Part shown: positions 11,207 to 63,559 of the stretch, piece by piece | Numbering within the stretch: position 1 is the stretch's first letter | How the letters are laid out: each line of letters starts with the position of its first letter | Assembly: GCF_003574315.2 (NCBI RefSeq) | Contig: NZ_AP025739.1 | Location: forward strand, 1,302,001 to 1,366,000 | Direction: 5' to 3' | Source: Capsulimonas corticalis | Lineage (GTDB): Bacteria; Armatimonadota; Armatimonadia; Armatimonadales; Capsulimonadaceae | Length of the DNA: 64,000 bases | Program-made: the position numbers and the translations under genes | Notes under the pieces: generated by a model | What the model was told of the DNA's origin: nothing | Database searches by the model: none | Seen by the model: the letters and a program-made list of their open reading frames with translations, nothing else

Positions 11207-12490
11207 ATGAAGCAAGTCTTTTCACGGTCTACCGGACGATTTCTCGTCCCGTTCGCGGCGGCGCTTGGGCTCGCCGTTTTCTCCTGCCCTACCTCGGCGG
11301 CCACATTCTCATTCGCTCAAGACGACTGGTTATCGGATTCTGGCGGCTTCACCAGTCAGAATTCGGATTGGGGTCAGGTGGATATCCACCTTGCCCCCTC
11401 GGACCTGAGCGCCTTTCGATATAGCGCCACGGATGGGACCTACACGGGATATGTCAATGTGGTGACGAATGTCCAGAACGGCGCCACGATGAACTGGGCT
11501 GTCCAAAACCTTCCCGTCCAATTCCGTAACGTCACCGATTTGAGCGGCAGTCTTCCTTCGACCGTGCGGTTTGACCTTGGGGTGACGCCGGGCGTCAATG
11601 TCACCAACCTCGGCTACTTCGCAACCATTAATAGGGATCCTCTGGGCATGGAGCCGACGGGGAGCTTCGCCGCCGCCAGCGTCGGCGATAAATCCATACT
11701 CTTTGGCGGCATTACCGGGACCGATCCGATCACGGGAGACACTTATTCGGGCGACAGCGGCGGAGACCCGCCTCCGAAGGCGTCGAACTTCGTAGGATTA
11801 GACGCAACCCAAGTGGCGGGTAAAGGACATGCAATCGCGATAAAAGAAACGGCTGTCGCGGCGATTGATGAAGACGACGCAGGGTGCGCGCCCGGCGCTG
11901 TGGCGAGATCTATCGAATATCTGAAATCCATTAACAAACGAATCGTGATCAATGGTTCGGCTCAGGATGTCTATTCCGGTCTGCAAACAAATATGCAAAC
12001 TCAACCGGGCACGGGCACTCGTGTGGATCTAGTAAAGTCGAAAAAAGATGAGTACGACAAGAAAAACCACATTCCGATTCAGACGACGAAGAGTGGGGAT
12101 ATCGAAGTTGCTTACAAAGCTCTCGGACATAAGGAAGACGTGGAAGTCTTTCTGAACAAGAAGAGTGGGAGCGGTCACTTCGCGTTCGTTTCCAAAATCA
12201 TCCCCGTATATACACTTAACCCACATGATCCTAAAGAAAAAGATCTTACCAATTACATATTCACGATTATCGACGACCCGACTCAAGCCGATCACAAGGC
12301 GGAGAACGAATCCATACCGCTGTATGTATACACGAATCGCACGATCGGGCAAAGCGATTATTTATCAAGCATCGGCTCTTTCTTTATCGAAAACGTCGTC
12401 CCCGAACCTTCTCCCCTCATCTTCGTGCTTGCGGGCTCCTGCGTTCTCATCCTCATGATCGGTCTTCGACGCAGACACGCCGCGAGATAA
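11207..12490 (+). CDS. PEP-CTERM secreted protein with possible Cys-His-Asp triad, paralogue 1
   Basis: 427 residues. Signal peptide about 1-32 (ending TSAA). The C-terminal VPEPSPLIFVLAG, hydrophobic stretch and RRRH tail form a PEP-CTERM sorting signal, cleaved and anchored by exosortase. The N-terminal half is a beta-rich domain (DWLSDSGGFTSQNSDWGQVDI, NVVTNVQNGATMNWAVQNLP). The C-terminal half has DAGCAPGAVARSIEYL, a Cys at a helix start, then GSGHFAFVSKI and FTIIDDPTQ. The order Cys...His...Asp recalls papain-like or C39-like folds. This triad is my inference. It is paralogous to the next gene. Confidence 0.75.
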   Translation: MKQVFSRSTGRFLVPFAAALGLAVFSCPTSAATFSFAQDDWLSDSGGFTSQNSDWGQVDIHLAPSDLSAFRYSATDGTYTGYVNVVTNVQNGATMNWAVQNLPVQFRNVTDLSGSLPSTVRFDLGVTPGVNVTNLGYFATINRDPLGMEPTGSFAAASVGDKSILFGGITGTDPITGDTYSGDSGGDPPPKASNFVGLDATQVAGKGHAIAIKETAVAAIDEDDAGCAPGAVARSIEYLKSINKRIVINGSAQDVYSGLQTNMQTQPGTGTRVDLVKSKKDEYDKKNHIPIQTTKSGDIEVAYKALGHKEDVEVFLNKKSGSGHFAFVSKIIPVYTLNPHDPKEKDLTNYIFTIIDDPTQADHKAENESIPLYVYTNRTIGQSDYLSSIGSFFIENVVPEPSPLIFVLAGSCVLILMIGLRRRHAAR

Positions 12491-12508
12491 ACTTACCAGC
12501 GATTCCCA

Positions 12509-12543
12509 GCACGGCTTGGCATGGATCATGCAGCCGTGCTTTT
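12509..12543 (+). terminator. Terminator-like hairpin after PEP-CTERM paralogue 1
   Basis: Outer stem GCACGGCT/AGCCGTGC and inner stem GCATG/CATGC are followed by TTTT. It lies 19 bp after the stop of the first paralogue, so it probably ends that transcript before the second copy's promoter. Confidence 0.6.
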
Positions 12544-12631
12544 GCTATCAAGTTAGACCATTGAAAGATCGGCGTTCGCGCCGACGGCTCGGCTCAACTC
12601 AATCCTACTGCATCCACAGGAGTTTAGCGTC
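12544..12631 (+). repeat. Leader repeat copy 2 before PEP-CTERM paralogue 2
   Basis: This matches the leader at 11086-11206 (GAAAGATCGGCG, GGCTCAACTCAAT, AGGAGTTTAGCGTC). The hairpin CGGCG-TTCG-CGCCG carries a stable UUCG-type loop. Confidence 0.7.
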
Positions 12632-13906
12632 ATGAAGCAAGTCTTTCCAGGGTCCTTCGGGCGATTTCTTGCCCCGTTCGCGGCGGCGCTCGGGCTCGCC
12701 GTCTTCCCCTCTCCCGCCGGCGCGGCGAACCTTACCTTCCATCAGGCGGACTGGCTGTCGGATTTCACCGGATTCACCAGTCAGAATTCCGACTGGGGCC
12801 AGGTGGACATCCACCTGACCAGCTCGGACCTCAGCGCTCTTCAGTACGATCCTTCGAGCTCTACGTACACGGGTTACATCAACGTGGTGACGAATGTTCA
12901 GGACGGCGCCACGATGAACTGGGCGGTGCAAAACCTTCCGGTTCAATTTCAGGGTCTGTCCTCGTTCAACGGCAGCCTGCCGGACTCGGTCATGTTCGAT
13001 CTGGGAGTCACGCCGGGAATGGACGTCACCCAGCTCGGCTATTACGCGACGATCAATATGGATCCGCTGGGCCTCGCGCCCACTGGCAGCTTCGCCACGG
13101 CGGGAGTTGACAACTTGTCTCTGCTCTACGGCGGCGTGGACGGTACGGACCCGGATACGGGGACGACCTTCCTCGGCGGCACGGGACGCGACGCGCCTCC
13201 CAAGGCCGAAAATTTCAAAGGCGCCAACGCGGGTGAGACGCAGGGGAAAGGCGGGCAGATCGCGGGAAAAGAAACGGATGTCGCGGCGGTGGACGAAGAC
13301 AAAATGGGCTGCGTGCCGGGCGCCACAGCGCGCTCCATCAAGTATCTGCAATCGCAGCACAAAAACGTCAATACCCCCGACTCAGCGCAGGACGTCTACA
13401 ATGCGCTGAAGACCACGATGCAATCGAGCGTGGGAGACGGCGGCAACGGCACCAATGTTGACAATCTGAAACCAGGAAAGGACGCCTACGACAAGGCGAA
13501 GAAGCTGCCGATCAAAACCGAGAAGAACGGCGGGATTGCCAACGCCATCGCCGCACTGAATAAAAAGAAAGACGTCGAGGTGATTTTGAAGTCGAAGGGC
13601 CAGGGCGGGCACTGCGCTTTTGTCTCCAAGATCATTCCCACGCTGGATAAGAAGGGACGCGTCGTCAGTTACACCATCTCCACGATTGACGACCCCACAC
13701 AGGGCAATCACAAAGCTGAGAACCGTAAGGCCGACTATACGGTCAAGCCGAACGGCGATATCACCAGCCCCGGAAACTTCGCCAAAGTCGATACCTACTT
13801 CATCGAAACCGCCGTCCCCGAACCCAGCTCATCCGCCGCACTCTTCGCCGGATTCGTGAGCCTCGTTTTCTTCGCCGGCCGCCGCCGCAGCAGCCTCACG
13901 GCGTAG
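12632..13906 (+). CDS. PEP-CTERM secreted protein with possible Cys-His-Asp triad, paralogue 2
   Basis: 424 residues with the same architecture as the preceding gene: signal peptide (about 1-32, ending GAA), beta-rich domain with SQNSDWGQVDIHL and NVVTNVQDGATMNWAVQNLP, then KMGCVPGATARSIKYL, GQGGHCAFVSKI and STIDDPTQGNHKAENR. It ends in VPEPSSSAALFAGF and an RRR tail, an exosortase sorting signal. The retained Cys, His and Asp-Asp in both paralogues, despite drift elsewhere, suggest that they matter. AGGAG precedes the ATG. It probably faces the cell surface or matrix. The function is unknown. Confidence 0.75.
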   Translation: MKQVFPGSFGRFLAPFAAALGLAVFPSPAGAANLTFHQADWLSDFTGFTSQNSDWGQVDIHLTSSDLSALQYDPSSSTYTGYINVVTNVQDGATMNWAVQNLPVQFQGLSSFNGSLPDSVMFDLGVTPGMDVTQLGYYATINMDPLGLAPTGSFATAGVDNLSLLYGGVDGTDPDTGTTFLGGTGRDAPPKAENFKGANAGETQGKGGQIAGKETDVAAVDEDKMGCVPGATARSIKYLQSQHKNVNTPDSAQDVYNALKTTMQSSVGDGGNGTNVDNLKPGKDAYDKAKKLPIKTEKNGGIANAIAALNKKKDVEVILKSKGQGGHCAFVSKIIPTLDKKGRVVSYTISTIDDPTQGNHKAENRKADYTVKPNGDITSPGNFAKVDTYFIETAVPEPSSSAALFAGFVSLVFFAGRRRSSLTA

Positions 13907-15317: not shown

Positions 15318-15460
15318 GGCCTTCGGCCATGGCCGGCGGGATACGAGACCGCGCGAATATCTTGGTGCAGCGTGACTCCCGTCAACGCGACGAATGTCCT
15401 CAGGCGCACGGCGAGTTATGATGTTTACGCCATCCGATAATTTTATGGCCTGTCTCTCAT
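15318..15460. other. Intergenic stretch, no feature seen
   Basis: This separates the secreted hydrolase from the minus-strand immunity island. I see no clear hairpin with a T-run and no RNA gene. Base composition shifts toward AT from here to about 18.2 kb. Confidence 0.4.
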
Positions 15461-15643
15461 TTAGCAGCTCGAATTAGATTTCGTCGCCGCTTCCGCAGAT
15501 GAGCTCCGTTTCGCCAGTGAAGCCCTGACTAATAGTTCGCACCCAGAACGCCATGTACTAAGTTGGGCGATCCAGCGTCCGCTCGCTTCCTCGAAAGCGA
15601 ACGTCAATCCCATATAGTCCGCTTCTTCTTCGACTCGTGTCAA
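15461..15643 (-). CDS. Short hypothetical ORF overlapping the upstream gene
   Basis: 60 residues from TTG 15643, overlapping the upstream stop (TTGA). The first half, MGLTFAFEEASGRWIAQLS, looks like real protein; the tail is Ser/Ala-rich. It could be a small gene or the out-of-frame C-terminus of the upstream protein. Weak evidence only. Confidence 0.3.
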   Translation of the reverse strand: MTRVEEEADYMGLTFAFEEASGRWIAQLSTWRSGCELLVRASLAKRSSSAEAATKSNSSC

Positions 15644-16248
15644 TAAAGAAATCCTCTCTCAAAGCTCCAGGGGCTCTGAGCGTCGTACGGCATTTCGACG
15701 CACTCCCCGCCAGTAAGCGCGATCCAGGTTTGGAGCATCGCATGGATAGGAGACGCAGGGTCGGGCGAGACAAAAATCTGCTGACTGGACACATCGCTTA
15801 ACTGGTTGATAATGATCCATACGCCGCCAATCCCCTGCCCCATCATTCGAAGATTATCCTCTAACCACTCTTCGTTTCTCCAGAAGTCGTGTACCGAGGG
15901 ATCGAGGCCATAGATTGTAAAATCTTCGCCATAACTCAGATTTCCGCCAGATAAGATCTCTCGCATCACAGTATCGATATTTTCCGGAGAGATTACGCGA
16001 TAGTGTTGAAGCGAATATCGGTTTGCCAGCCCTGGATCTTTATTCAGTTCTTCGTCACTGTAATTACACCACAGCCAGATTGCCTCGCAATTCAGGAGTT
16101 GTTCGCGAAGTATATTCTCTACACCGGCAATGAGACTAAACACGGGAATGGTGTAAGTAATGACACCTGAGTTCTCGTGCTGAACCGCCATCTTCTCATG
16201 ATGTGCAGGTCTTTTCCGATGAGCGCCTGTTCTGGATAAAAACGACAT
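15640..16248 (-). CDS. Hypothetical protein in the immunity-gene island
   Basis: About 202 residues from ATG 16248 (GTG 16293, overlapping the Imm21-like gene, is also possible). No signal peptide. It is acidic and Trp-rich, with AIWLWCNYSDEELNKDP, SYGEDFTIYGLDPSVHDFW and a C-terminal GGVWIIINQLSDVSSQQIFV segment. The size, acidity and position next to Imm21-like, barstar-like and WGR-like genes suggest an immunity protein of a polymorphic toxin system, but I do not recognise the family. Confidence 0.6.
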   Translation of the reverse strand: MSFLSRTGAHRKRPAHHEKMAVQHENSGVITYTIPVFSLIAGVENILREQLLNCEAIWLWCNYSDEELNKDPGLANRYSLQHYRVISPENIDTVMREILSGGNLSYGEDFTIYGLDPSVHDFWRNEEWLEDNLRMMGQGIGGVWIIINQLSDVSSQQIFVSPDPASPIHAMLQTWIALTGGECVEMPYDAQSPWSFERGFLY

Positions 16249-16265
16249 ATCAACGCCCCACCACT

Positions 16266-16823
16266 CTACACATGCAGTCGGACAAGATGACACCGCCTTG
16301 CAGTATCGTCATTCACTGCGACTTTATCCCCGAAACATCGATATATGCCATTCTTGACTTTAATCAACAACCCGCCTGACCCCGTCGCCATTTCTCCCAT
16401 AGGGCGCTCATTGTCTAGCACATTCAAATCAAGAATACATGAACCGCTTTCGGGAGCCCATAAAATTGCCAGTACTTCAGAGGTTATTTCGATCACTCCA
16501 AAATCTTCAGGATTTATCAACGGTGATTGCGCAAGAGCGTCTATTGCAATCTGAGTATCTTCATTTAACCAAGCACGCAAAATAAGCCACTGGTTTTCAT
16601 TAATTTGATAGACATCGCCAGTTCCTGGTCCATCTGTCTCCCAAATGAGAGCTTGCCCTGCATCAACAGATAAGAGGCTGCCCTCTTTTGCAGGCAGTAG
16701 GATATCGCATGCTCTGTCGTAATCCAAACTGCCGTCATCGGAACCACGCCAAGACTGCACAATGCCACCATCAGCAATCAGGAACGGTCCACCTTCTGTA
16801 TCCACATAATCTATGTATCGCAA
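16266..16823 (-). CDS. Imm21-like immunity protein
   Basis: 185 residues. The N-terminus has GGPFLIADGGIVQSWRGSDD, then DYDRACDILLP. This matches the GGP...W.G...DYDRAC pattern of immunity protein 21 (Imm21), a cytosolic protein predicted to neutralise a polymorphic toxin. The middle has GQALIWETDGPGTGDVY and the expected WLILRAW segment; LIKVKNGIYRCFG is near the end. No toxin gene is in the window, so it would protect against toxins from neighbours or is an orphan. It is followed on the same strand by another likely immunity gene. Confidence 0.7.
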   Translation of the reverse strand: MRYIDYVDTEGGPFLIADGGIVQSWRGSDDGSLDYDRACDILLPAKEGSLLSVDAGQALIWETDGPGTGDVYQINENQWLILRAWLNEDTQIAIDALAQSPLINPEDFGVIEITSEVLAILWAPESGSCILDLNVLDNERPMGEMATGSGGLLIKVKNGIYRCFGDKVAVNDDTARRCHLVRLHV

Positions 16824-16998
16824 ATTTTTAATCCAAACAAAGATGATCCGAATTGTATACCACTGAAATCAAATTTGGGAAATTTGGCCCTTCTCCTACG
16901 AGAAATATTAGTAAACTCATAGGAGTTGGAAATCCGGTTCTCGTGTGTGATACACTGTCAGATAGTTGTTCGAAGCAACTTAGAGCGACTATTAAATC

Positions 16999-17295
16999 TT
17001 ACAAGCCATGTTTCAACATTTCCTGGGCATCGTTCCATATGATTGCAACATTTGGCTCTTTGATGTCAAGGAGGTTCATATAAATACTATCTTGAAATGC
17101 GTCCCATTTGTTGAGAGAAATGAGTTCGATGGGTTGTGGTAAATCTACAGCCGCTTGTGCGAGAAAACTGGACTTGTCATGGACACAACGCCCGTCTAAC
17201 TCAAAAATGCAATACCCGCGTTGCTCGAGATCATTTTTCAAGATAATGCTGTCGCTTTTATTTACACAATTCATTCGTGAATAACGGTATGTCAT
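16999..17295 (-). CDS. Barstar-like protein, C-terminus short
   Basis: About 98 residues (ATG 17295; GTG 17313 possible). YCIFELDGRCVHDKSSFLAQ, then NKWDAFQDSIYMNLLDI, and NVAIIWNDAQEML match the barstar layout: a first beta strand ending in DG, the helix with N-WDAF-D that plugs the barnase active site, and a late strand with an aliphatic-W patch. Barstars bind and block secreted RNases. The usual last helix and strand are missing after KHGL, so it may be truncated. It is AT-rich compared with the chromosome around it, suggesting transfer. Confidence 0.65.
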   Translation of the reverse strand: MTYRYSRMNCVNKSDSIILKNDLEQRGYCIFELDGRCVHDKSSFLAQAAVDLPQPIELISLNKWDAFQDSIYMNLLDIKEPNVAIIWNDAQEMLKHGL

Positions 17296-17349
17296 AAAGG
17301 TTCGAATCTGCACGTTTTAAGATATGTGCGAATGCTAAGCCGCCTGCCG

Positions 17350-17859
17350 TCACAAGATTATGGCTCCGCCCTTAGGATGCAGGACAACGTACTCATCCTC
17401 TTTACTGTAGGCGAGAGTGGCGCCGGCGTCCCACTCACGCGCGGTCAGTTCCTCCCACACCGTTTTATGAGCCGCCTCTATATCCAGCACGAAGCAGTAG
17501 ATTGTCATCGAACCGGAACCAATGTCGCCGCCATCGCAGTGTCCGTTTCCGGTCCACCCCAAGACTTCGTTCATCAAATCTTCAATCCTATGCCGCCGAT
17601 GCAGATCGGTTTCTGTCCCCCATCCATCGATACAATATTGAATGACGAAATCGATGTAGTCCTCGTCAGTCAAGTCTCGGAATCCTTCGGCGCGCTGTTC
17701 CTCGGCAAGAGCCTTCATGACACTCTCGATTTCGCTGCTGGGAATTTGTCCCGTCTTTGACTGACCACGATGCCCCACGTGGCCCCAGTGCACCGTAATG
17801 TCTGAGCCATCATTCCAGATTTCCCAGTATGCGCTTGTAGAATTTATCAATTTGATCAT
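17350..17859 (-). CDS. WGR-like domain protein in the immunity island
   Basis: 169 residues from ATG 17859. Residues 1-40 (AYWEIWNDGSDITVHWGHVGHRGQ) fit the WGR fold pattern (W-I...V.WG..G..GQ), a nucleic-acid- or protein-binding beta domain. The rest is acidic, with EDYIDFVIQYCIDGWGT and a C-terminal DEYVVLHPKGGAIIL. Such WGR plus acidic-domain proteins occur in immunity-gene arrays. A direct role is not shown. It lies between the barstar-like and ankyrin genes, all on the minus strand. Confidence 0.6.
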   Translation of the reverse strand: MIKLINSTSAYWEIWNDGSDITVHWGHVGHRGQSKTGQIPSSEIESVMKALAEEQRAEGFRDLTDEDYIDFVIQYCIDGWGTETDLHRRHRIEDLMNEVLGWTGNGHCDGGDIGSGSMTIYCFVLDIEAAHKTVWEELTAREWDAGATLAYSKEDEYVVLHPKGGAIIL

Positions 17860-17870
17860 TGGTCTTAACG

Positions 17871-18156
17871 TATTCCGCCCGTCTGCTCAAGGATTGTGAT
17901 CACACGCTTCCGCTTCTTCGCAATGCCCGGCGCATGTTCGATACTCGAGTTCATGGAACGAGTGCGCATTAATATCAGTGCCATGATCCAGCAGCAACGC
18001 GGATCGTCCATATTTGCTATCCGCATTCACATCTGCTCCGTTCTGAAGTTGATCCACAACCGCCGCGTAATTCTCGCGACTGCATGCTTGCATCAGTAGA
18101 ATATAGCCCTGTGCGACCATCGCTGGGTCCATCAAGATTTCGATATCTTCGTCCAT
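17871..18156 (-). pseudogene. Ankyrin-repeat gene, apparently frameshifted
   Basis: The frame from 18156 reads LLMQACSRENYAAVVDQL, then NGADVNADSKYGRSA and LLLDHGTDINAHSF, clear ankyrin pieces. After about 17963 the natural continuation is in another frame (MNSSIEHAPGIAKKRKRV...TILEQTGG, stop at 17871), while the open frame ends in non-repeat sequence at 17887. Between GRSA and LLLDHG most of one repeat seems deleted. It may be a decayed immunity-type ankyrin protein or a sequencing indel. Confidence 0.55.
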
Positions 18157-18285
18157 TTGCTACTATTTCTCCGAAAGCGATTAGCAAGCAAATGTGATGT
18201 TCGCCCTAAAGCATCATATCACAAAAACGCACCTCGCGAAAACGTCCGTTCGCTTCGGCGTCTCCTCACCGGGTATAATCTCCCC

Positions 18286-18579
18286 ATGATCTCTCCACTC
18301 CTAGAAGGCCTCAACGAGCCGCAGACGCAGGCGGTGCTGCATGAATCCGGGCCGTTGCTGATCTTTGCCGGCGCGGGGTCGGGCAAGACGAATGCGCTGA
18401 CGAAGCGGATTGCGTATCTGATTCGTGAGCGGTATGTGCGGCCTTATAACATTTTGGCGGTCACCTTTACCAATAAGGCGGCGGCGGAGATGAAGGAGCG
18501 CATTGTGCGGCTCGTCGGCGAGACGGTGACGCGGGAGCTTTGGGCGGATTGGGAAAAGCACATCGGCAAAAAAAGATAA
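18286..18579 (+). pseudogene. Truncated duplicate of the pcrA/uvrD 5' end
   Basis: Ninety-seven residues. The first 87 codons (18286-18546) match codons 1-87 of the intact helicase at 20227, with 12 nucleotide differences, 11 of them synonymous and one Ser/Thr change. After TRELWA the frame runs into unrelated sequence and stops. It keeps the Walker A motif AGAGSGKT but lacks all later helicase motifs, so it is not an active helicase. A TATAAT box lies 6 nt before its ATG, as in the intact copy. Confidence 0.85.
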
Positions 18580-18584
18580 AAACA

Positions 18585-18628
18585 CTTGTACACAAAAAGA
18601 TGAATTGCCTTGTACACAAATCGATGAA
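18585..18628 (+). promoter_or_regulatory. Tandem operator-like repeats in the Fic promoter
   Basis: Two 20-bp direct repeats, CTTGTACACAAA-2 nt-GATGAA, start 24 bp apart (18585 and 18609). The second contains a likely -35 (TTGTAC, 18610-18615), 18 bp before TACAAT (18634-18639), which lies 7 nt before the Fic ATG. The layout suggests repression by a protein bound at the -35 box, perhaps Fic's own winged-helix domain. Confidence 0.6.
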
Positions 18629-18646
18629 TATGATACAATCTATCTT

Positions 18647-20179
18647 ATGGCTCAAGGTAATGAAAAACTCGCGGCGGCGATGGAGGCGCTTCAGGCAGTT
18701 CAGAAACACGGCATAGTGCGCTCTGAGGATCTGAGCAGGCGCTATCGTGATCGCCTGGTAACTGCAGGCTTTCTCACACCCATCATCAATGGCTGGCTTC
18801 AGGTTGCAAACCCTACAGCGCCATCAGGCTCCACGGCGTCATGGTTCGGCGCATATTGGTCATTCATCTCCCAGTATCTCCAAGCGCGCTTCGGTGACGA
18901 ATACTGCTTATCTGCGGAAGCATCGATTAAGAAGCATGTTCAATCGACCATTATCCCACAGCAAATCCTAGTCAGCGTCACGAGCAGGATCAATAATACG
19001 ATTAGCCTGCCGCATGATACTTCCATCACGGTGTTCGCTTCACCTGAAAATATCTCTGCCCAACAGAAGATGAAGATCGACGGCGTCTGGACTCTCAGCC
19101 TAGCCGCCGCCATCTGCAAAGTCTCTGAACCCTATTATGCAAACAATGCAGAAGAGATGGAACTGGCGCTTCGGATGGTGCGCGATCCCAGCGAACTGCT
19201 CGAAATTCTGCTGGAAAACGGCAGCACCACCAAAGCAGGAAGACTGGTTGGGGCTTACAATTTTCTAGGAGACACCAAGACAGCAAGCCGCATAAAATCG
19301 GCGATGGTTGCCGCAGGACACACAATTGAAGAGAAGAACCCGTTTCGCCGCCCTGAGCCAATGCTCAGTGGGCGAACACGCATTGTATCGCCGCACATCG
19401 CTCGTTTAGAAGGTCTGTGGGCAGACATGCGCGATCAAGTTATCGAGCAATTCGCGGACTATAATATTCCTCTACTCTCCACTGCAGAATATTTAGCGGA
19501 CCTCGAAGATAGATATGCCGCAGATGCGTATAATTCGCTGTCCATTGAAGGCTATCGCGTCACTCCCGAACTGATTCAGCGCGTACGCGACTACGGATGG
19601 AATCCCGAAGCCACTCCCGAAGATCGCATGCATCAAGACGCGCTGGCCGCGCACGGATACTATTTAGCGTTTCAAGCTGTAAAACAGAGCATCGAGCGAA
19701 TCTTGAATGGAGTTGAGGCGGCAAAAGTCATCGATAACGATTTTCATGACTGGTATACACAGATGTTCTCCCCTCAGGCGACGGCTGGAATTATCAAGCC
19801 CGCACAACTGGCAGGATACCGCAATAATCCTGTCTACCTGCGAGGATCCATGCACGTTCCGCCAGCCGCCGAGTCTGTACCGGACTGCATGGATACCTTT
19901 ATCGAGCTGATGACGGCGGAAGAGAACGCCGCCGTTCAAGCCGTGCTGGGGCATTTTATCTTTGTGTTCGTTCATCCCTATACGGATGGCAACGGGCGAA
20001 TCGGCAGATTCATCATGAATGCGGGGTTCAGTTCTGGCGGTTTCCCGTGGACAGTCATCCATCAGAACCGGCGTGAAGAGTATCTTGCAGCGCTCGAAGA
20101 AGCGTCTGTGAGACGCAATATCACTCCTTTTGCACAGTTCGTACGCGAAGAGATGGAAAGCAAGCGCACGGGAGCTTGA
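18647..20179 (+). CDS. Fic-family protein with AbiEi-like N-terminal winged helix
   Basis: 510 residues from ATG 18647. The N-terminus (about 5-55, ALQAVQKHGIVRSEDLSRRY then LTPIINGWLQ) resembles the AbiEi-type winged-helix antitoxin domain. The Fic domain has the core motif HPYTDGNGRIGR (about 442-453), which transfers AMP or another phosphate-containing group to a protein hydroxyl. Upstream, SLSIEG (about 297-302) fits the autoinhibitory (S/T)xxxE(G/N) motif, whose Glu blocks ATP. So it should be a self-restrained AMPylase fused to a DNA-binding head. It sits between two copies of the pcrA 5' end, suggesting acquisition. Confidence 0.88.
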   Translation: MAQGNEKLAAAMEALQAVQKHGIVRSEDLSRRYRDRLVTAGFLTPIINGWLQVANPTAPSGSTASWFGAYWSFISQYLQARFGDEYCLSAEASIKKHVQSTIIPQQILVSVTSRINNTISLPHDTSITVFASPENISAQQKMKIDGVWTLSLAAAICKVSEPYYANNAEEMELALRMVRDPSELLEILLENGSTTKAGRLVGAYNFLGDTKTASRIKSAMVAAGHTIEEKNPFRRPEPMLSGRTRIVSPHIARLEGLWADMRDQVIEQFADYNIPLLSTAEYLADLEDRYAADAYNSLSIEGYRVTPELIQRVRDYGWNPEATPEDRMHQDALAAHGYYLAFQAVKQSIERILNGVEAAKVIDNDFHDWYTQMFSPQATAGIIKPAQLAGYRNNPVYLRGSMHVPPAAESVPDCMDTFIELMTAEENAAVQAVLGHFIFVFVHPYTDGNGRIGRFIMNAGFSSGGFPWTVIHQNRREEYLAALEEASVRRNITPFAQFVREEMESKRTGA

Positions 20180-20214
20180 TCCCGCCGTGAGTCGAACGGA
20201 TGCTCCGCATCCGG

Positions 20215-20220
20215 TATAAT
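20215..20220 (+). promoter_or_regulatory. -10 box of pcrA, six nt from the start codon
   Basis: TATAAT ends at 20220 and the ATG is at 20227, which would place transcription initiation at or within a base or two of the start codon, giving a leaderless mRNA. The same spacing is kept in the truncated upstream copy (TATAAT 18274-18279, ATG 18286). Confidence 0.55.
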
Positions 20221-20226
20221 AACCCC

Positions 20227-22467
20227 ATGATCTCTCCACTCTTAGAAGGCCTCAACGAGCCGCAGACGCAGGCGGTGCTGCATGAAACCGGGCCGCTGCT
20301 GATCTTTGCCGGCGCGGGGTCGGGCAAGACGAATGCGTTGACGAAGCGGATTGCGTATCTGATTCGTGAGCGGTATGTGCGGCCGTACAACATTTTGGCA
20401 GTCACCTTTACCAATAAAGCGGCGGCGGAGATGAAGGAGCGTATCGTGCGGCTCGTTGGCGAGACGGTGACGCGGGAGCTGTGGGCGGGGACGTTTCACT
20501 CGCTGTGCGCGCGGATCCTGCGGGAGCGCGGCACGATGATCGGGCTGGACAAGAACTTTGTCATCTATGATGATGGGGATCAGTTGTCGCTGATCAAGGA
20601 GGCGGTGCAGGAACAGCATCTTGATGAGAAGCAGTTCGCGCCGCGCGCGATCCTGTCGCAGATCAGCAAGTATAAAGAGACGATGCAGGGGCCGGAAGAT
20701 ATCAAGGGCGACTACACGGCGTCGCCGTTCGAGCGGGCGGTGGCGGGGGTCTATCAGTCGTATCAGGAGAAGCTGGCGCTGTCGAATGCGCTGGACTTCG
20801 ACGATCTGATCATGAAGACCGTGCAGCTTTTGCGGGAATCGGACAAGGCGCGCGAGCATTACCAGAACCGATTCCAGTATGTCCACTGCGATGAGTTTCA
20901 GGACGTCAACGACAGCCAGTACAAGCTGCTTTCGCTCTTCTCCGGCAAGCACCGCAATATCTGCGCGGTCGGCGACGACGATCAGAGCATCTACGCTTTC
21001 CGCGGCGCGAATGTCCAGATCATCCTGAACTTCGAGCGCGACTTCCCCGACGCCACGATTATCAAATTAGAGCAGAACTATCGCTCGACGCGCACGATTC
21101 TGGACGCTGCGTATCATGTGGTCAAGAACAATCGGGGACGCGCGGACAAGCGGCTCTGGACTGATAAGGCCGAAGGCGAGAGCGTGACGCTGATCGAGGC
21201 GCCCAATGAGGTGGAGGAGGCGGTCGCGATCGTCAACATCATCAAAGAGGCGACCATCACCGGCGACCGGCGCTATCAAGACTTCGCCGTGCTCTACCGC
21301 GCCAACGCGCAGTCGCGGGCGATGGAAGAGCAGTTTATCAATTATCGGATCCCATATAAGATTGTCGGCGGCGTGCGGTTCTACGAGCGGCGTGAGATCA
21401 AGGACATCATCGCGTATCTTCGCGTCATCACCAACCCGTTCGATGGGCTGTCGATGCGGCGCATCATCAACGTCCCCGCCCGCGCCATCGGCGTCACGAC
21501 CATCGACAAGATCAACAACTTCGCCTCCCGGTACGAGATCTCATTTTGGGACGCCTGCCGCCGGGTCAACGAGATCGAACTCTCGTCGCGCACCCGGCAC
21601 AACGTCCAGGCGTTCGTCAAGATGATCGAGTACCTGATCGGCCGGCGCGAGAACCAGGGCGTGGTCGAGTTATTGCAGAACGTGATCGATACGTCGGGGT
21701 ACATCGACGCCCTCAAGCGCGAGAAGACGCCCGAATCGGATTCGCGCATTGAAAACGTCCGCGAGCTTCTCACCGTCGCCCATGCCTTCGAGGAGCAGAC
21801 CGCCGAACCCGAAGACCGCACGCTGTCGATGTTCCTGGAAAATGTCGCGCTCGTCTCCGACCTCGACTCCCTGGAAGACGACGCCAACTCCGTCACGCTC
21901 ATGACCCTGCACGCCGCCAAGGGCCTGGAGTTCCCAGTCGTGTTCATGATCGGCATGGAGGAAGCCGTCTTCCCGCACAGCCGCAGCATGGGCAAACAGG
22001 CCGAGCTCGAAGAAGAACGACGTCTCTGCTATGTCGGCATCACCCGCGCGCAGACCGAGCTCTACATGTCCTACGCCGGCGCGCGCACCCTGTTCGGCCA
22101 GACCCAACGCAACCCGGTCTCGCGCTTCATCTCCGAGATCCCCATGTCGCTCTTTCTGGCGAAGTCCACCCGCCGCCCGTCCATGGAGCCCTACCAGAGC
22201 ACCCTTGGAACCAACCAGTACCGCGCCGAAAGCCACATCGCCCCCCGCTGGGACGACCTCGCGCGCGGCAGCGCCCAGAAAGCCCGCACCACCGCCGCCC
22301 CGCCCGTCGACCGCCCGTTCAACCTCGGCCAAAAAGTCAAACACGAGAAGTTCGGCACCGGAACCGTCGTCAGCTTCGAAGGCGACACCGTCGTCACGAT
22401 CGCGTTCCCCGCGCCGGTGGGGATCAAAAAGCTGGACACAGGATTTGCAAAGCTGGAGAAGGCGTAA
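20227..22467 (+). CDS. pcrA: UvrD/PcrA-type ATP-dependent DNA helicase
   Basis: 746 residues, a normal length for PcrA. SF1A motifs in order: Q-motif region LNEPQTQAV, Walker A AGAGSGKT (about 28-35), Ia [74 protein letters not shown]. The C-terminal tail (FNLGQKVKHEKFGTGTVVS) is the Tudor-like domain that in PcrA contacts RNA polymerase. It unwinds DNA 3' to 5' in repair and plasmid replication. No Shine-Dalgarno is seen. Its first 87 codons are duplicated upstream. Confidence 0.95.
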   Translation: MISPLLEGLNEPQTQAVLHETGPLLIFAGAGSGKTNALTKRIAYLIRERYVRPYNILAVTFTNKAAAEMKERIVRLVGETVTRELWAGTFHSLCARILRERGTMIGLDKNFVIYDDGDQLSLIKEAVQEQHLDEKQFAPRAILSQISKYKETMQGPEDIKGDYTASPFERAVAGVYQSYQEKLALSNALDFDDLIMKTVQLLRESDKAREHYQNRFQYVHCDEFQDVNDSQYKLLSLFSGKHRNICAVGDDDQSIYAFRGANVQIILNFERDFPDATIIKLEQNYRSTRTILDAAYHVVKNNRGRADKRLWTDKAEGESVTLIEAPNEVEEAVAIVNIIKEATITGDRRYQDFAVLYRANAQSRAMEEQFINYRIPYKIVGGVRFYERREIKDIIAYLRVITNPFDGLSMRRIINVPARAIGVTTIDKINNFASRYEISFWDACRRVNEIELSSRTRHNVQAFVKMIEYLIGRRENQGVVELLQNVIDTSGYIDALKREKTPESDSRIENVRELLTVAHAFEEQTAEPEDRTLSMFLENVALVSDLDSLEDDANSVTLMTLHAAKGLEFPVVFMIGMEEAVFPHSRSMGKQAELEEERRLCYVGITRAQTELYMSYAGARTLFGQTQRNPVSRFISEIPMSLFLAKSTRRPSMEPYQSTLGTNQYRAESHIAPRWDDLARGSAQKARTTAAPPVDRPFNLGQKVKHEKFGTGTVVSFEGDTVVTIAFPAPVGIKKLDTGFAKLEKA

Positions 22468-22469
22468 AA

Positions 22470-22985
22470 TCAGGCTTCCGCTTCTATAGATTGGCGGATA
22501 TCCTTGAACAGCAGAAACAAGTGCAGTGAGTTGGTCGGTGACGCCTCCATCCCAAACTTTTGATAGAAAGTCCTGGCCTCTTCGTCTTTCGCATGAACCA
22601 AAAACGCCCGCCCTCCTATGGCTTCTGCCCCGTACAAGGCGCGACGAAGGGCATCCCGAAGCAAAGCCTTGCCAAGTCCCTTGCCTTGCTCGTTCTGATC
22701 TACGGCAAAGCGGGCCATAAGAATGACCGGCACGGGGTAACGCCCCTGACCTTTGGTGACGCGATCGGGCGCCGCTTCTGGCGCCACGGAAGCCGGAGCA
22801 AGGCTGTAATAGCCGATTACGCGTTTGCCTCGCGCTATAACATAGGTTCTCGCTCCTCCGCTGGCCTGGTTTTGAAGAGCATACTTTCTCAGAAAATCAT
22901 TCAGGGGAGATTTGCCGCAATCAAAGCCGGCGATCTCATGGCTCTTGGCAAGCAACGCCGGTGAATGCAATACTTCATCATCCAT
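22470..22985 (-). CDS. GNAT acetyltransferase toxin (TacT-like)
   Basis: 171 residues. The N-terminal FDCGKSPLNDFLRKYA motif, YYSLAPASV, the acetyl-CoA loop QNEQGKGLGKALL and late FYQKFGME fit the GNAT toxins that acetylate the amino group of charged tRNAs and stop translation. It overlaps by 8 bp the upstream DUF1778 antitoxin gene, a standard type II toxin-antitoxin operon. It is convergent with pcrA, only 2 bp apart. The lethal target is inferred from the family. Confidence 0.9.
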   Translation of the reverse strand: MDDEVLHSPALLAKSHEIAGFDCGKSPLNDFLRKYALQNQASGGARTYVIARGKRVIGYYSLAPASVAPEAAPDRVTKGQGRYPVPVILMARFAVDQNEQGKGLGKALLRDALRRALYGAEAIGGRAFLVHAKDEEARTFYQKFGMEASPTNSLHLFLLFKDIRQSIEAEA

Positions 22986-23265
22986 GAAAAGGATCTGCCT
23001 CGCTGAACAATTGGCGAAGCGCCGGAATGTTTTTTGGCGCTTCCTCTAGTCGCTGGCAAAAAGCTTCCCATTGTTCGGGCGGAAGATGAAATTCTGTTTG
23101 ATCGGCGATGATGGCGCGGGCGGCGTCCAGGGACGCCTCCAGCACAAATTGGCTCATGTTCATACTGCGGGCGCGAGCAGCCTGCGCCAATAGCGTTTTA
23201 TCTGGCTCAGATGCGCGAATAGAAAGCCGACTTTCCCGCTGGGTAGTTGGGGTATGGTTTTTCAT
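22978..23265 (-). CDS. DUF1778-family antitoxin (TacA-like)
   Basis: 95 residues from ATG 23265, with AAGGAG 8 nt upstream (GTG 23274 overlaps that site). The ribbon-helix-helix N-terminus RESRLSIRASEPDKTLLAQA, then MNMSQFVLEASLDAA, binds operator DNA. The C-terminal tail (LPPEQWEAFCQRLEE) is the segment that wraps the GNAT toxin in this family. It precedes and overlaps the toxin gene. A direct repeat in its promoter is the likely autoregulatory site. Confidence 0.9.
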   Translation of the reverse strand: MKNHTPTTQRESRLSIRASEPDKTLLAQAARARSMNMSQFVLEASLDAARAIIADQTEFHLPPEQWEAFCQRLEEAPKNIPALRQLFSEADPFHG

Positions 23266-23300
23266 GCTTCTCACTCCTTGCTGACTCCATCATACCATAC

Positions 23301-63061: not shown

Positions 63062-63559
63062 CTACGACGCAATTTTCGATAGACCTGATTTCATTGTCAT
63101 CCTGTGAATTAGGAGAAGAAAAATAAGCGCCACAATTGGCGCATTTATCTTCAGGAACGTTTCAATGTCATTCACGCCAACGTGATATGTCAGCGTATTA
63201 AATTGTCGCTGTGGAACGCTAAGAGAATAATAGTGATTCATTATCCGGTTATAGACTGTATCAGGGACGATATCAGTAAGATACCACCAGTTTAAATGTA
63301 CAGTAAATGCAATACACGCGGAAATCAATAACATTGACATTTGGCGCGTTTTCCAAATAATCCTTGCTAGAGTTAACAGACTAATTGGAAAAACCACGTA
63401 GACCAACAACTTATAAAATAATGGAAACAATATATGCACTGGTAACCAAGTTTCGAAATCCGTTGTTTTATCCCAAAAAAACAAGCTCAAGAAAACGAAT
63501 TGACTTATAGTACTAGCAATAATGCTCCAACTAACAATTAGCCTAACGTGGTTTTTCAT
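63062..63559 (-). CDS. Hypothetical integral membrane protein
   Basis: 165 residues from ATG 63559. About four hydrophobic segments: LIVSWSIIASTISQFVFLSL (8-28), HILFPLFYKLLVYVVFPISL (40-62), MSMLLISACIAFTVHL (73-90) and APIVALIFLLLIHRM (138-155). The 95-135 stretch is polar and likely outside. I do not recognise a family. It lies in an AT-rich stretch with an ankyrin gene on the same strand, so it may belong to a second acquired segment. Confidence 0.6.
   Translation of the reverse strand: MKNHVRLIVSWSIIASTISQFVFLSLFFWDKTTDFETWLPVHILFPLFYKLLVYVVFPISLLTLARIIWKTRQMSMLLISACIAFTVHLNWWYLTDIVPDTVYNRIMNHYYSLSVPQRQFNTLTYHVGVNDIETFLKINAPIVALIFLLLIHRMTMKSGLSKIAS

Follow-up and report, generated by a model that had tools for sequence, protein, structure and literature searches.

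The 64,000-nt stretch of the Capsulimonas corticalis genome analysed here (the window) carries, at 15640-18156, five closely packed minus-strand open reading frames (ORFs) of, in order of position, 202-217, 185, 104, 169 and 89 aa (Table 1). Read in the direction of transcription, the cluster opens with the ankyrin-repeat gene, continues with the WGR, barstar-like and Imm21-like genes, and closes with the gene for a protein of 202 aa. When the minus-strand frames of 15380-18300 are followed over their full original length, the intergenic gaps come to 5, 54, 4 and 17 nt; the full ankyrin frame ends 5 nt before the WGR gene, the full barstar frame 4 nt before the Imm21-like gene, and the latter is spaced 17 nt from the 202-aa gene. 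Minus-strand ORFs cover 2472 nt of 15461-18156, a total that counts a further 60-aa ORF, compared with a mean of 762 nt and a maximum of 1602 nt in 300 dinucleotide shuffles. The GC content of the stretch is 41-52%, against about 60% on both sides, and GC3 ranges from 0.40 to 0.61 in the five genes, compared with 0.75-0.84 in three flanking host genes. The initial annotation, which was partly confirmed overall, had described five or six minus-strand genes in an AT-rich stretch; five genes and the lower GC content stand, while the gene count of six does not. The would-be sixth gene, the 60-aa ORF, shows GC1/2/3 values (0.49/0.57/0.52) that do not fit a coding frame. It lacks any homologue, even a hidden one in any of the three frames of its strand, and its proposal as a new immunity family is not supported.

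Table 1. Genes of the cluster and features around it, in window positions.
Feature	Positions	Strand	Remarks
Tandem paralogous exported proteins	11207-13906		two genes
60-aa ORF, judged non-gene	15461-15643	-	GC1/2/3 pattern; no family match
202-aa gene (p217/p202)	15640-16248	-	ATG at 16248 gives 202 aa; GTG at 16293 gives 217 aa
Imm21-like gene, apparently intact	16266-16823	-	TTG start; Pfam Imm21 24.8 bits
Barstar-like gene, broken	16828-17295	-	in-frame stop 16999-17001; ORF as listed 16999-17313
WGR-ferredoxin-like two-domain protein, intact	17350-17859	-	Pfam WGR 21.2 bits
Ankyrin-repeat gene, broken	17865-18156	-	ORF 17887-18156; Pfam Ank 22.7 bits
Truncated second copy of uvrD/pcrA start	18262-18579		precedes Fic gene
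Fic protein	18605-20179		524 aa
Full-length uvrD	20200-22467
GNAT acetyltransferase and small RelB/MobA-like protein	22470-23274		just downstream of uvrD
Membrane protein of Rhs locus	63062-63559
Ankyrin protein of Rhs locus	63846-64613
Rhs gene	64564-68598		past the window end (window-equivalent positions)

A Pfam search of the neighbouring genes identified an alpha/beta hydrolase, Fic, UvrD and GNAT proteins and no recombinase. A repeat scan found no repeated intergenic element in the cluster, the minus-strand frames of 15380-18300 held no toxin gene or Rhs tip remnant between the genes, and a search for Rhs cores in the host genome had no match at the site. There were no Rfam matches, and a scan for promoters and terminators returned 9 promoter-like sites where 4.1 were expected. 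PHROGs and PADLOC added weak Ank matches and assigned the neighbouring Fic protein to SoFic, with nothing further.

The surroundings have features of their own. The truncated copy of the uvrD/pcrA start spans 286 nt at 94% identity, includes the -10 region and precedes the Fic gene, which lies just upstream of the full-length uvrD; the arrangement looks like an insertion that duplicated the 5′ end of its target gene. The SoFic-like protein (PADLOC) retains its HPYTDGNGR motif intact and may also carry an inhibitory SxxxEG motif, in the form SLSIEG. Beyond uvrD, the GNAT acetyltransferase and the small protein beside it, DUF1778-like by eye, are probably a TacAT-type toxin-antitoxin pair. In three other genomes (G002, G004 and G006) the uvrD matches are split at about residue 260 by an open frame of about 640-730 nt, possibly an intein. 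Synteny around uvrD differs among relatives, and an empty site is not definable. Elsewhere in the window, the two exported proteins listed in Table 1 (427 and 424 aa) end in a PEP-CTERM-like C-terminal tail.

The resemblances to Imm21, Barstar, WGR and Ank reported by the initial annotation are real but weak, and the Ank score is the only one of the four above its Pfam cut-off; the as-listed ORFs of the other three all score below theirs, which counts against an immunity reading of the cluster. The Imm21-like protein is so called because its 24.8 bits to PF15589 fall under the gathering cut-off of 30.7. It does carry, as WRG and YDRAC, the WxG and YxxxC motifs described as absolutely conserved in Imm21 (Zhang et al., 2012; PMC3482391). 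The genome encodes another Imm21 protein, which at 36 bits exceeds the cut-off and is solitary, as are the other Imm21 copies found.

The barstar-like ORF as listed scores 22.4 bits to Pfam Barstar (PF01337), against a cut-off of 23.4, and matches profile positions 3-64. Its frame continues past the stop to 16828, and when read through, with X at the stop, it reaches 29.5 bits and positions 3-89 of 96. A relative without that stop (G070; 50% identity) matches on both sides of it. Immediately upstream of another relative (G078) lies an Rhs-linked tip that scores 34.8 bits to the PF00545 ribonuclease domain, the classic partnership of barnase and barstar. In a further genome (G007), a Barstar-like domain is fused behind a DnaJ J-domain (L084:6729-7388). 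Sequence searches of the PDB with the barstar-like and WGR proteins gave nothing useful.

The WGR protein, at 21.2 bits, lies just under its Pfam cut-off. Its predicted model (pLDDT 95.2) shows a WGR fold in residues 1-68, which align with 2ra8 (Z 10.1, 68 aligned, rmsd 2.1) and with the WGR domain of PARP2 (Z 7.8, 65 aligned, rmsd 1.7; both by VIA-align), and a second half of a common ferredoxin-like alpha/beta type. The best Foldseek matches of the model, to eIF4E (TM 0.4, rmsd 9), were rejected as a common arrangement. Full-length relatives with 31-47% identity occur in Bacillota, Dysgonomonas and a Chloroflexi MAG. They are mostly solitary in ordinary gene contexts, and no recognisable toxin was found beside them at any of 12 GTDB loci; ten neighbouring proteins were scanned. 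One relative, however, sits in a B. ovatus plasmid island together with integrase, SMI1/KNR4, Imm26, DUF2262, PoNi-like and Tdi1 genes. The WGR gene is the weakest member of the cluster and need not encode an immunity protein. Two fusions were also seen: on a Riemerella anatipestifer plasmid (L018:1-954) a WGR-like N-terminal part is joined in frame to dihydrofolate reductase, beside resistance genes, and in Dysgonomonas (L008, L010-L013) the WGR protein has a conserved domain of about 118 aa fused to its N terminus, and its chromosomal surroundings are largely conserved.

Aligned to an ankyrin protein of the same genome, the ankyrin ORF is missing about 15 residues from a repeat. The gene is also frameshifted, its native tail lying in another frame that ends at 17865. 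The frameshift could be a sequencing or assembly error.

The 202-aa protein was not named by any family library searched, Pfam, PHROGs and PADLOC included. A first weak relative (G021; 19% identity over the full length) seeded a profile; among 291 genomes of the phylum, the final profile finds the family at 10 loci in 8 of them. When all window ORFs were searched with a profile of the seven other aligned members, the window protein alone was retrieved (E=1.7e-13), a value mildly biased by the inclusion of the window sequence in the underlying alignment. None of the eight aligned members had a credible Pfam match, and the match of one of them to PRK13678 (NCBIfam; E=0.0013) was judged too weak. 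The 202-aa, Imm21-like and G021 204-aa proteins had no tblastn match among plasmids, and an IMG/VR scan with the 202-aa pair was equally empty; a single-sequence structure model of the 202-aa protein was set aside at a pLDDT of 45.5.

Four of the nine other members in the phylum lie in Rhs toxin arrays: one begins 13 nt behind a 1626-aa Rhs gene (G021), one stands directly behind an Rhs C-terminal tip (G184), and two occur within arrays that combine displaced Rhs tips with small genes (both in G189). The G021 and G184 members directly follow the same type of tip, with 61% identity over the first 57 residues; beyond these the G184 tip is broken, and the G021 tip ends in a glycine-zipper-like segment. 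Because there are few Rhs genes per genome, linkage in four of nine cases would lie far above random placement. At the five remaining loci the members stand alone or are fused; one of these is a second copy in the same genome (C1:250350-250913; L073:8345-8968), which has a host-like GC content of 0.64 and the same gene neighbourhood in a genome of the same genus (G001), and looks like one vertically inherited, domesticated copy. The suggestion of the initial annotation that 15640-16248 might represent a new immunity family thus gains support from the Rhs linkage at four loci, a genomic context that points to a candidate immunity-like family absent from Pfam. On balance, we favour the fuller proposal that this unnamed family neutralises Rhs tips of the G021/G184 type and has spread through the phylum, for which no extended polyimmunity loci are listed, both as the cognate partner of Rhs genes and in the form of orphan defence genes that stand alone or in arrays.

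Rhs toxins are well represented in the host genome itself, with eight clear and two weaker core loci. The nearest Rhs gene lies past the window end, about 46 kb from the cluster; the earlier statement that no toxin is near holds within the window and fails just beyond it. Several of the Rhs genes are followed, directly behind the toxin, by AT-rich small genes, two of which encode ankyrin proteins, so ankyrin immunity is in local use. The end of the window cuts such a locus (C1:1366564-1370598), in which a 1344-aa Rhs gene is followed by an ankyrin protein and a membrane protein, both small genes having about 37-40% GC. The tips that were recognised in this genome are a GH-E nuclease and a HINT domain with a Tse2-like ADP-ribosyltransferase. 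Neither a PF00545 toxin nor a G021-type tip was detected in it, the second of these searches, run without a positive control, being a weak negative; since both partners went undetected, the barstar-like and 202-aa genes, at a minimum, look like orphans.

The most probable reading of 15640-18156 is that of a heterogeneous polyimmunity locus, acquired horizontally and now partly decayed. Its five unrelated immunity-type genes would form one compact minus-strand operon, in which each intact protein would bind and block a single class of incoming Rhs-type polymorphic toxin. The mode of action would be that of single immunity proteins, with no need for secretion or an enzymatic step. The array presumably arrived by lateral transfer, and its proteins are presumably expressed and toxin-binding. 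Judged from family membership and linkage, the likeliest function of the intact genes would be protection from Rhs toxins delivered by neighbours, a role ascribed to them because immunity proteins of such families bind and block the toxin. Homologue neighbourhoods point the same way and support the orphan immunity proposed in the initial annotation, whose interpretation holds in part: the 202-aa family occurs in Rhs arrays, a barstar relative stands behind a barnase-type tip, and a WGR relative lies in a recombinase-linked Bacteroides immunity island. Homologues lying mainly in non-toxin contexts had been named as grounds against that proposal; these grounds partly apply to the WGR gene, most of whose relatives are solitary (12 of 12 GTDB loci), and to the Imm21-like gene, the other copies of which are solitary as well. 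The earlier label of an immunity "bank" is too strong, because two of the five genes are broken. These two, the barstar-like and ankyrin genes, of which intact relatives exist, have presumably lost their function; their lesions suggest that part of the array is no longer under selection, and the cluster may be disappearing.

The main rival, which we consider unlikely, is that the cluster is the scar of a lost Rhs toxin locus, whose immunity modules, derived from successive tips, were stranded by deletion of rhs and never gathered for defence. It would account for the decay of two genes, and relatives of two of the cluster genes do lie in arrays where displaced tips and immunity genes accumulate. 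However, the Rhs core search had no match at the site, and no tip remnant remains between the genes, whereas real Rhs arrays retain tips there. Less probable still is that small foreign genes came together by chance at an insertion hotspot beside uvrD and that several of them, such as WGR and ankyrin, do not encode immunity proteins. The Fic gene with its duplicated uvrD start and the GNAT/DUF1778-like pair adjoining the cluster fit a hotspot, as does the mostly solitary occurrence of WGR relatives, but the operon spacing and shared orientation would be unlikely by chance, and so would the meeting of three families whose links to immunity are published (Imm21, Barstar and Ank) with a fourth that is Rhs-linked. 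That all five genes are intact and form a fully working immunity bank, the lesions being sequencing or assembly errors, is very improbable: the genome record is a single contig for which the sequencing method is not given, and frameshifts are a frequent sequencing error, but the barstar-like gene is interrupted by a stop codon instead of a frameshift, and the damage to the ankyrin gene includes an in-frame loss of 15 residues.

Read as a decayed polyimmunity locus, the cluster can be set beside several known systems. The type called heterogeneous polyimmunity loci, described in 2012, consists of tandem, co-oriented, structurally unrelated immunity genes with small gaps and no toxin between them; several of these loci, though not all, are adjoined by a XerC/D-type recombinase (PMC3482391). 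The cluster resembles them in its tandem arrangement of unrelated immunity-type families (the WGR gene being less sure and two genes broken), in its common orientation with gaps of 4-54 nt and in the absence of toxins between its genes. Imm21 and Imm-Ank, both types represented here, are listed members of such loci (PMC3482391). It differs from the listed examples in having only five genes, two of them broken, in containing one family outside Pfam, and in lacking a XerC/D-type recombinase, a feature not required of polyimmunity loci. With rAID islands it shares co-oriented, short orphan immunity genes, and the WGR relative of B. ovatus sits in a plasmid island of that type; in contrast to them, it has neither a tyrosine recombinase nor a repeated intergenic motif. 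The SAIDI-1 islet of Salmonella Typhi is chromosomal and consists mostly of orphan immunity genes whose matching toxins are absent from the genome (PMC7400221), and the window cluster appears to be of similar make-up. Islets related to SAIDI-1 often contain pseudogenes (PMC7400221). The immunity of SAIDI-1, however, is directed at T6SS/CDI effectors, whereas the toxins linked to the window cluster are Rhs tips. Orphan tip/immunity arrays of Rhs loci hold relatives of the 202-aa and barstar-like genes, but the site in the window has no Rhs core or tip.

The kind of system is already known, and the gain is incremental. New are the 202-aa family and, probably, a lineage, the Armatimonadota, outside the four (proteobacteria, bacteroidetes, firmicutes and actinobacteria) in which alone extended polyimmunity loci are listed (Zhang et al., 2012; PMC3482391). 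Orphan immunity arrays record the toxins that a bacterium had to survive. Compared with known loci, the present array contributes an immunity-like family not described before, together with a concrete candidate for its partner toxin, and extends such loci to an apparently under-studied phylum, and its gene loss bears on how long orphan immunity is retained after the toxin has disappeared.
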